A stretch of 32,276 nucleotides of DNA from Alphaproteobacteria bacterium (lineage in GTDB: Bacteria; Pseudomonadota; Alphaproteobacteria; Rs-D84): contig JAFOVN010000027.1 of NCBI GenBank assembly GCA_017392345.1, positions 1 to 32,276 of the forward strand, read 5' to 3'. The notes under the pieces were generated by a model. It was not told where the DNA came from. It worked only from the letters and a program-made list of their open reading frames with translations, and made no database searches. This document shows positions 16,295 to 23,484 of this stretch, piece by piece (the stretch's first letter is position 1; every line of letters begins with the position of its first letter). Position numbers and translations under genes: made by a program.

Positions 16295-16323
16295 TTGCAC
16301 AAAGTATGATTTTATGATACAAT
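16295..16323 (+). promoter_or_regulatory. Strong promoter of the 16.33-16.51 kb structured RNA
   Basis: TTGCAC (16295-16300), 17 bp, TACAAT (16318-16323). The predicted start is near 16330. No open reading frame with a ribosome site follows for more than 230 bp. Confidence 0.75.
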
Positions 16324-16329
16324 ACTTAT

Positions 16330-16510
16330 GCCGGTGGGGGTTCCATTGGCGGGGTGTAACGACCCTTAGATTCCGAGTGTCCGTGGGGACAAAAAACACC
16401 TCCAACCCAAGGTGGTTGGAGGGCGGTGAATATATCGAATAAACCCACTATTTTTCTCGGAACATAGTCGTTAACCTCCAACCACATGAAAGCAATTTCG
16501 GTGGTTTTTT
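16330..16510 (+). ncRNA. Candidate structured RNA (stand-alone sRNA or leader attenuator), unknown class
   Basis: A promoter at 16295-16323 and a terminator at 16480-16510 bound a gene-free transcript of about 180 nt. One nested fold uses TAACGAC/GTCGTTA (16357-16363 with 16467-16473) and TTCCGAG/CTCGGAA (16371-16377 with 16456-16462). These enclose a 5 bp hairpin (16378-16391) and a 9 bp hairpin CCTCCAACC/GGTTGGAGG (16399-16407 with 16414-16422). CCTCCAACCAC at 16475-16485 can pair with 16412-16422 (11 bp), with the 5' end 16335-16342 (8 bp, one G-U), or form the terminator stem with 16501-16506. I saw no SRP tip, RNase P, tmRNA T-loop or known riboswitch core. A 6S-like RNA or an attenuator for the operon at 16569 are both possible. 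Confidence 0.6.
16480..16510 (+). terminator. Terminator or attenuator at the end of the structured RNA
   Basis: AACCAC/GTGGTT plus GAAA/TTTC with a GCAA tetraloop, running into T residues at 16505-16510. Its left arm is also part of the segment that can pair upstream with 16412-16422, so termination may be conditional. Confidence 0.75.
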
Positions 16511-16564
16511 AATTCCCCTTCGCCTTGTGAAGGGGTGGCACGCGAAGCGTGACGGGGTAGTTGG
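16511..16564. repeat. GC-rich two-hairpin repeat, short copy
   Basis: TTCCCCTTC/GAAGGGG hairpin, then a CACGC/GCGTG hairpin, then GGGGTAGTTGG. It has the same layout as the repeats at 16172-16262 and 22391-22463, with different stem sequences. It ends 5 bp before ATG 16569, so it supplies the leader, and perhaps the weak ribosome site, of that gene. Confidence 0.7.
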
Positions 16565-16568
16565 GAAA

Positions 16569-16868
16569 ATGAAACGATATATTTTATTATTTTTAATTCT
16601 TTTTATGCCGACTTTTGCGCGGGCGGATGATAGCGGTTTTGTTGATGCGGATATGGCGCGACAAATGGAACTTTCGAAATTAAAACGCGAAGTGAGTGAA
16701 CTTGAAATAAAACTTTCCGAATGCAAGCGAAAAAATAAAAATTGGCGCACGGCGACATGGATTGGTGCGGCGGGAACCGTTGCAACCGGCACCGCGGCGA
16801 TAGTGCAGGGTGTAAAACTAAATAACCTTAAAAAAGAAAAAGCGAACGCAAAACAAAATGAAAAATAA
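16569..16868 (+). CDS. Small exported coiled-coil / glycine-zipper protein
   Basis: The protein has 99 residues and no recognised family. A signal peptide (MKRYILLFLILFMPTFARA) is followed by a charged heptad-like helix (MELSKLKREVSELEIKLSEC) with one cysteine. A small-residue hydrophobic stretch comes next (TWIGAAGTVATGTAAIVQG), and a Lys-rich tail ends the protein. ATG 16569 is chosen for the signal peptide; the reading from 16527 goes through the repeat. It overlaps the next gene by 11 bp, and the two share the same order of parts, so they look like diverged tandem duplicates. Insertion in the membrane or assembly in the periplasm is inferred. Confidence 0.72.
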   Translation: MKRYILLFLILFMPTFARADDSGFVDADMARQMELSKLKREVSELEIKLSECKRKNKNWRTATWIGAAGTVATGTAAIVQGVKLNNLKKEKANAKQNEK

Positions 16869-23136: not shown

Positions 23137-23484
23137 ATGAAAAGTAAAATTTCAAAGTATTTTTTAATTGTGGCAACTTTTGTTATGGCGAATTTGCCGG
23201 CATTTGCGGCGGAAAATCAAGGTGCGTGTGATTTGATAAAAAGTTTGAAACCGGTGATTCAAACTTTGCGAACACTTGCGTTTATCGGTGCTGCATTTGT
23301 CTTGATGGATTGGGCATGGGGTTTTATTAAGAGTGGAAAAGTTGAAATGAAAGATATTGAAGCAAAGGGAATCGGTATGTTTGTTGGTTTCTTCTTGTTG
23401 TTTGGTGTTGGTCTTATTTTGCAATTTGTTGGTTCCAATGCAGGGCAGGAGTATTTCGGTTGTGTCACGGGTGCATTAAAATAA
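23137..23484 (+). CDS. VirB2/TrbC-like small membrane protein (possible conjugative pilin)
   Basis: The protein has 115 residues. A signal peptide (cut after NLPAFA) is followed by a short mature head with Cys (ACDLIKSLK). Two membrane helices follow: LRTLAFIGAAFVLMDWAWGF and IGMFVGFFLLFGVGLILQFV, with a charged loop between them. A second Cys is near the end (YFGCVTG). This leader plus two-helix plan matches VirB2/TrbC pilins of type IV secretion systems, but no other virB gene is in the window, so the call rests on architecture. It is a single-gene unit with a strong promoter and terminator. Abundant expression would fit a pilin. Other two-helix envelope proteins remain possible. Confidence 0.65.
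   Translation: MKSKISKYFLIVATFVMANLPAFAAENQGACDLIKSLKPVIQTLRTLAFIGAAFVLMDWAWGFIKSGKVEMKDIEAKGIGMFVGFFLLFGVGLILQFVGSNAGQEYFGCVTGALK

Follow-up and report, generated by a model that had tools for sequence, protein, structure and literature searches.

What kind of RNA is made from the promoter at position 16295 of the window (the whole 32,276-nucleotide stretch of DNA analysed), and how does it relate to the gene that begins at 16569, is the question raised by this locus. The original prediction proposed the logic of an attenuator or riboswitch, or an RNA with closing ends such as 6S, and left the class unnamed. Comparison with homologues, many of them from the order of reduced gut Alphaproteobacteria (here the gut order), indicates that the element at 16295-16510 is a genuine structured leader RNA, kin to the phage antisense RNAs that control antirepressor genes. 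The leader is ~185 nt long, has its own promoter, and is both larger and better conserved than originally described. We read it as a domesticated C4-type module, which would work in cis as a default-off transcription attenuator. The assignment of the leader of the gene at 16569 as a C4-type antisense-RNA module used as a cis transcription attenuator is, in our judgement, probable; the comparison supports the order of the parts, the private a1:a′ and b1:b′ pairings, the exclusivity of A:B and B:C, the terminator, and the fixed position before the gene.

Architecture of the leader

The order of the parts, 5′ to 3′, is HP1, H2 with a1 in its loop, b1, Pc, A, B, Pf, Pe with b′ in its loop, a′, C and the terminator. 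In the window copy the features are as follows.

16295-16323, + strand: promoter TTGCAC-17-TACAAT (sequence, pattern scan, −10 spacing in relatives)
16330-16350, + strand: HP1, a 5′ hairpin near the expected transcription start (fold; a hairpin of different sequence in the same place in other copies)
16351-16366, + strand: H2 hairpin GGGG/CCCU, with a1 in its loop (covariation)
16357-16363, + strand: a1, UAACGAC, partner of a′ (both-side changes in 5/6 pairs; own- versus cross-locus test, p = 6e-54)
16371-16377, + strand: b1, UUCCGAG, partner of b′ (own- versus cross-locus test, p = 5e-47)
16378-16391, + strand: Pc hairpin UGUCC/GGACA (covariation)
16399-16407, + strand: A strand, CCUCCAACC, predicted to pair with B in the terminated state (three-strand test; covariation)
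16412-16422, + strand: B strand, GUGGUUGGAGG, partner of A or C (pairing; covariation; three-strand test)
16425-16445, + strand: Pf hairpin, with conserved loop GAAUAUAUNGAAUAA (covariation)
16448-16467, + strand: Pe hairpin CUAU/AUAG, with b′ in its loop (covariation; 100% paired)
16456-16462, + strand: b′, CUCGGAA (own- versus cross-locus test)
16467-16473, + strand: a′, GUCGUUA (own- versus cross-locus test; covariation)
16475-16485, + strand: C strand, CCUCCAACCAC, predicted to close the C4-like core with B or to be the 5′ arm of the terminator (pairing; covariation; three-strand test)
16480-16510, + strand: intrinsic terminator AACCAC/GUGGUU with U-run (fold; terminator statistics against shuffles)
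16569-16868, + strand: downstream gene, encoding a small protein with an N-terminal signal peptide, MKRYILLFLILFMPTFARADD... (ORF from the ATG at 16569; a co-oriented gene lies 3′ of most copies)

The proposed promoter was found in the sequence and by a pattern scan, with the −35 element TTGCAC at 16295-16300 and the −10 element TACAAT at 16318-16323, separated by a 17 nt spacer. The −10 box of relatives lies at a fixed distance, 27-28 nt 5′ of the start of the core, so transcription is expected to start at about HP1. Folding of the region, with pseudoknots ignored, gives a predicted minimum of −72.5 kcal/mol (z = −3.8, with none of 200 shuffles as good), which corresponds to the terminated state containing a1:a′, b1:b′, A:B and the terminator; the B:C state of the window copy, at −59.3 kcal/mol, is 13 kcal/mol costlier.

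At 83 nt beyond C, the start codon of the window gene is more distant than that of most relatives, and its Shine-Dalgarno sequence is weak. Between terminator and gene, the window (16512-16560) and locus L002 both have a GC-rich palindromic spacer, CCCCTTC..GAAGGGG..CGACGGGGTA, that resembles intergenic sequence elsewhere in the window's own genome. A short ORF following a GGAGG (GTG at 16426) was rejected, as it meets an immediate stop in both L002 and L003.

Competing pairings and how they are conserved

The pairings on which the original prediction was built are for the most part present. The segment CCTCCAACCAC (16475-16485), i.e. C, pairs perfectly over 11 bp with 16412-16422 (B), 16399-16407 (A) is a perfect local 9 bp partner of 16414-16422, and 16480-16485 pairs with 16501-16506, next to a T-run, in the terminator stem. 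The third partner suggested for C, 16335-16342, did not survive comparison, in that it sits in the local 5′ hairpin and is not conserved, with copies such as L003 having no complementarity there. The B strand is complementary to both A and C in 204/208 homologous copies, compared with 12/208 after shuffling of everything else in the element. The A/B/C triplet occurs in at least six sequence versions, changed together, including CTCCAACC/GGTTGGAGG/CCTCCAACC, CTCCTGAC/GTCAGGAGG/CCTCCTGAC (also given as CTCCTGAC/GTCAGGAG/CCTCCTGAC), CTCCAG/GGCTGGAGG/CCTCCAGCC and CTCCTGTC/GGCAGGAGG/CCTCCTGCC. The attenuator logic is thus supported: exclusive terminator and anti-terminator pairings lie 5′ of a co-oriented gene, the exclusive A:B and B:C helices are kept by joint changes, the terminator is in register, and the gene starts at a fixed distance.

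Covariation was assessed on an alignment made by MAFFT without reference to the structure and was compared with 500 shuffles, none of which reached the observed level; joint changes among the homologues keep both alternative pairings, and changes on both sides are present in each of a1:a′, H2, Pe, Pc and Pf. The Pe stem, for example, is CAAU/AUUG, CUGC/GCAG or CUGU/ACAG in relatives. The strongest covariation is in two long-range helices absent from the original prediction, 16357-16362:16468-16473 and 16371-16377:16456-16462, which correspond to a1:a′ and b1:b′ and which are private to each copy, e.g. b1/b′ is UUCCGAG/CUCGGAA in the window copy and UGCUCGG/CCGAGCA in L003. When the a′ and b′ of each copy were paired with the upstream part of their own locus or with that of other loci, own-locus pairing was favoured for both a1:a′ (p = 6e-54) and b1:b′ (p = 5e-47). 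Within a single genome, G065, the best fit for a′/b′ was the copy's own a1/b1 in 28 of 30 copies, which argues for cis pairing.

A mechanism can be proposed in which, by default, a1:a′, b1:b′ and A:B would form during synthesis of the RNA, leaving C free to form the terminator, such that the gene would be off and an RNA of ~185 nt released. Occupation or disruption of a1/b1, with candidate occupants being another RNA, a protein or a ligand, would enable B to take C, so closing the C4-like core; with B:C formed, the terminator could not form and the gene would be read.

Pairing by C to form a terminator is predicted in 87% of gut-order copies, compared with 7% of shuffles. In L190 and L195, C is able to pair with the Shine-Dalgarno sequence of the next gene instead, and the same applies, by inspection, to L181 and L204. 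Two loci from the window's own genome, L158 and L162, have no terminator, and their A strand, CACAATCC, is complementary to the Shine-Dalgarno region of the next gene, GGATTGTG; this complementarity is a possible further output. Minimal versions of the element, of ~91-105 nt, are present in genome G189 (L191, L198, L202 and L206), where a short loop of GAAA or GCAA type takes the place of the conserved Pf loop.

A true riboswitch, in which small-molecule binding by a 5′ part with a double pseudoknot sets the A/B/C switch, would be in accord with the pseudoknotted fold, with the dozens of copies before functionally mixed genes, and with the interchangeability of the outputs, i.e. terminator or Shine-Dalgarno pairing, as in the four loci named above. 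We consider it unlikely, however, in that the a and b pairing segments are variable and private to each copy, in the manner of an antisense code, and in that the best-conserved loop, GAAUAUAUNGAAUAA, becomes a GAAA tetraloop in G189. A c-di-GMP riboswitch was rejected; c-di-GMP is unlikely as the ligand or signal because none of the 59 genomes of the genus has a GGDEF domain.

Relationship to C4 and sRNA-Xcc1

With respect to RNA class, the window gave no match to Rfam at the gathering score, 6S included, and 6S is likewise absent from its permissive matches; together with the leader position and the many copies, these results argue against the 6S suggestion. Permissive Rfam matches elsewhere in the loci were ascribed to chance or to tRNA/5S. 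The best match of the window among 4227 families was to sRNA-Xcc1 (RF02221), which at 22.3 bits is below the cut-off of 53 but in register over model positions 1-87, and the window copy has the consensus core secondary structure of RF02221. The original prediction named no class; the kind that matches is the C4-type phage leader, with sRNA-Xcc1 as the nearest Rfam family. A copy from the same genus, in G143, matches RF02221 at 39.7 bits (E 6e-6). The cut-off is exceeded by L230, a distant homologue from another alphaproteobacterial order, the 3′ half of which scores 66.2 bits.

Full-length matches of model R1, which was built from copies in the window's genus, extend to two leaders of phage antirepressor-type genes. 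One is L268, located 5′ of a Bro-N gene, at 29.2 bits (E 3e-6); the other is L270, from phage Rac-SA53, which precedes ant and scores 22.2 bits (E 3e-4). RF02221-type loci are themselves located directly before ant in phages Aaphi23 and Rac-SA53, and before a Bro-N gene in a Pasteurella record. RF02221 models only the B:C-closed core. The RF02221 loci L233-L262 and the phage loci L269 and L270 have, in addition, an unmodelled a1/b1 half upstream and a2/b2 over the ribosome-binding site of the next gene downstream. The arrangement of the RF02221 loci is that annotated for P1 c4, where the order is a1, b1, c4, a2, b2, icd, ant; from these sequences, the RF02221 family seems to describe the core region of a leader of C4 type.

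The C4 RNA of phages P1/P7 (RF01695; c4-a1b1, RF03163) has the same order of parts as the gut-order copies and is likewise in the leader of the gene that it controls. The characteristic C4 features, i.e. a stem closing two hairpins (B:C, Pf and Pe), b′ in the second loop, a′ before the closing strand, and upstream a1 and b1 complementary to a′ and b′, are all present, and the C4 (RF01695) covariance model gave no match to the window even at permissive thresholds. The sections of PMC5320573 consulted describe C4 as an RNase P-processed RNA in which b′ blocks ribosome-binding sites and a′ determines specificity. By contrast with C4 of P1/P7, the gut-order copies use strand C as terminator and have an A strand that competes for B; they are also many, chromosomal and located before host genes, whereas C4 precedes the phage ant gene. 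C4-type a2/b2 at the downstream ribosome-binding site is absent in the gut-order copies (a2, p = 0.15; b2, a slight excess, p = 0.012).

The likeness to sRNA-Xcc1 lies in the RF02221 model itself, a B:C-closed core with Pf and Pe, and in the upstream a1/b1 half shared by its loci. The outputs differ, with the sRNA-Xcc1 loci having a2 (p = 7e-5) and b2 (p = 8e-9) and a terminator in only 7%, and the gut-order copies showing the reverse. Among class-level copies a terminator is present in 14/20, and L228, L230 and L232, which are without one, have a2/b2-like matches. The contrast between a2/b2 and terminator suggests that one and the same module can act either through an intrinsic terminator or by pairing as an antisense RNA with the ribosome-binding site.

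In excerpts from the literature, sRNA-Xcc1 is reported to be 88 nt long, its ends having been mapped (PMC2996969), and to occur upstream of symE in Xanthomonas integrons (PMC12444791). C4 and sRNA-Xcc1 are listed as separate annotations in the relevant part of PMC12189769, the only paper found for both terms in a limited literature search. The C4-like sRNAs of Acinetobacter baumannii, as covered by the sections of PMC5320573 consulted, resemble the gut-order copies in that a C4-type structure is multiplied in one genome, apparently with processing from longer transcripts. They are described there as small RNAs with variable a′ targets and, unlike the gut-order copies, with no intrinsic-terminator attenuator or per-copy a1/b1 code in that part of the description.

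Distribution, gene context and possible role

The window's own genome has seven copies of the element. Within the genus it is present in 55/59 genomes, with the copy number reaching ~52 in a genome of ~1 Mb (51 in G065), and model R1 detects it in 179/201 genomes and 19/23 genera of the order. In the rest of the class the element was found in only eight sampled genomes, and viral contigs gave only three exact matches to the core pattern. Candidatus Enterousia is among the named records with the element, as are further Alphaproteobacteria of the gut and of termites. A start codon follows C by 25-75 nt on the same strand in 160/203 copies (median 48 nt). Of 171 downstream proteins, a simple rule marks 89 as secreted-looking, and 45 have fewer than 90 aa, many of the latter being HTH-like; Pfam identified HTH domains and Listeria-Bacteroides repeats, as well as single instances of UvrD, an ABC transporter, Stealth and an OMP barrel. 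Each copy in the gut order is apparently, from its sequence and position, a self-contained off/on switch for its own gene.

The same units might be regarded as a trans-acting sRNA family that is merely upstream of genes and whose product, released whole or processed to a C4-like core, acts on other mRNAs. That every unit comes with a promoter and a terminator, that gene-less tandem units exist, and the 88-nt sRNA-Xcc1 RNA reported in the part of PMC2996969 cited above, are consistent with such a role. It is nonetheless improbable as a general explanation, since the spacing to the start codon is fixed and, in most copies, leaves no room for a further promoter beyond the terminator, and since a′/b′ match their own a1/b1, not those of other copies. 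Some copies may act only as small RNAs, because tandem arrays contain upstream elements that have a promoter each and lack a gene of their own. Such arrays, of 3-4 elements, were observed at G065:C2:122-887 (L166), L119 and L060, with a promoter for each element and with the last element preceding a small HTH-like gene. A simple tandem-leader reading of the arrays is weakened by the tandem copies carrying their own promoters. A structured repeat or mobile sequence devoid of regulatory function, as might be suggested by the many copies, paralogous expansion and tandem arrays, is very improbable given the compensatory changes in most helices, the joint three-strand changes, and the retention of promoter, terminator and gene spacing.

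With a C4-type attenuator in cis as the preferred reading of the leader, a broader proposal can be made, which we regard as possible rather than probable. It may be that an order of gut bacteria has adopted a C4 phage immunity module as a general-purpose switch for genes, a single ~1 Mb genome containing as many as ~50 such leaders, each having a private a/b code and an intrinsic terminator, and each opened singly by matching RNAs or jointly by a common signal, sRNA-Xcc1 being the same kind of leader. If so, sRNA-Xcc1, so far described as a trans-acting small RNA, would be such a leader, and RF02221 would be part of a longer one, so joining two Rfam families, C4 and sRNA-Xcc1, that are kept apart. 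One module would then have two alternative outputs, antisense to a ribosome-binding site or an intrinsic terminator, and would be a candidate regulator for dozens of genes, many of them encoding secreted proteins and small HTH proteins, in bacteria with little known regulation.

Certain types of gene recur after the element. A family of ~60-aa HTH-like proteins with a PTxYQLIMFI motif is found after copies including L039, L049, L053, L064 and L119, among others. The window also has, at 23137-23484, a gene that appears by eye to encode a VirB2/TrbC pilin-like protein, and pilin-like genes follow the element in L046, L102 and L132.
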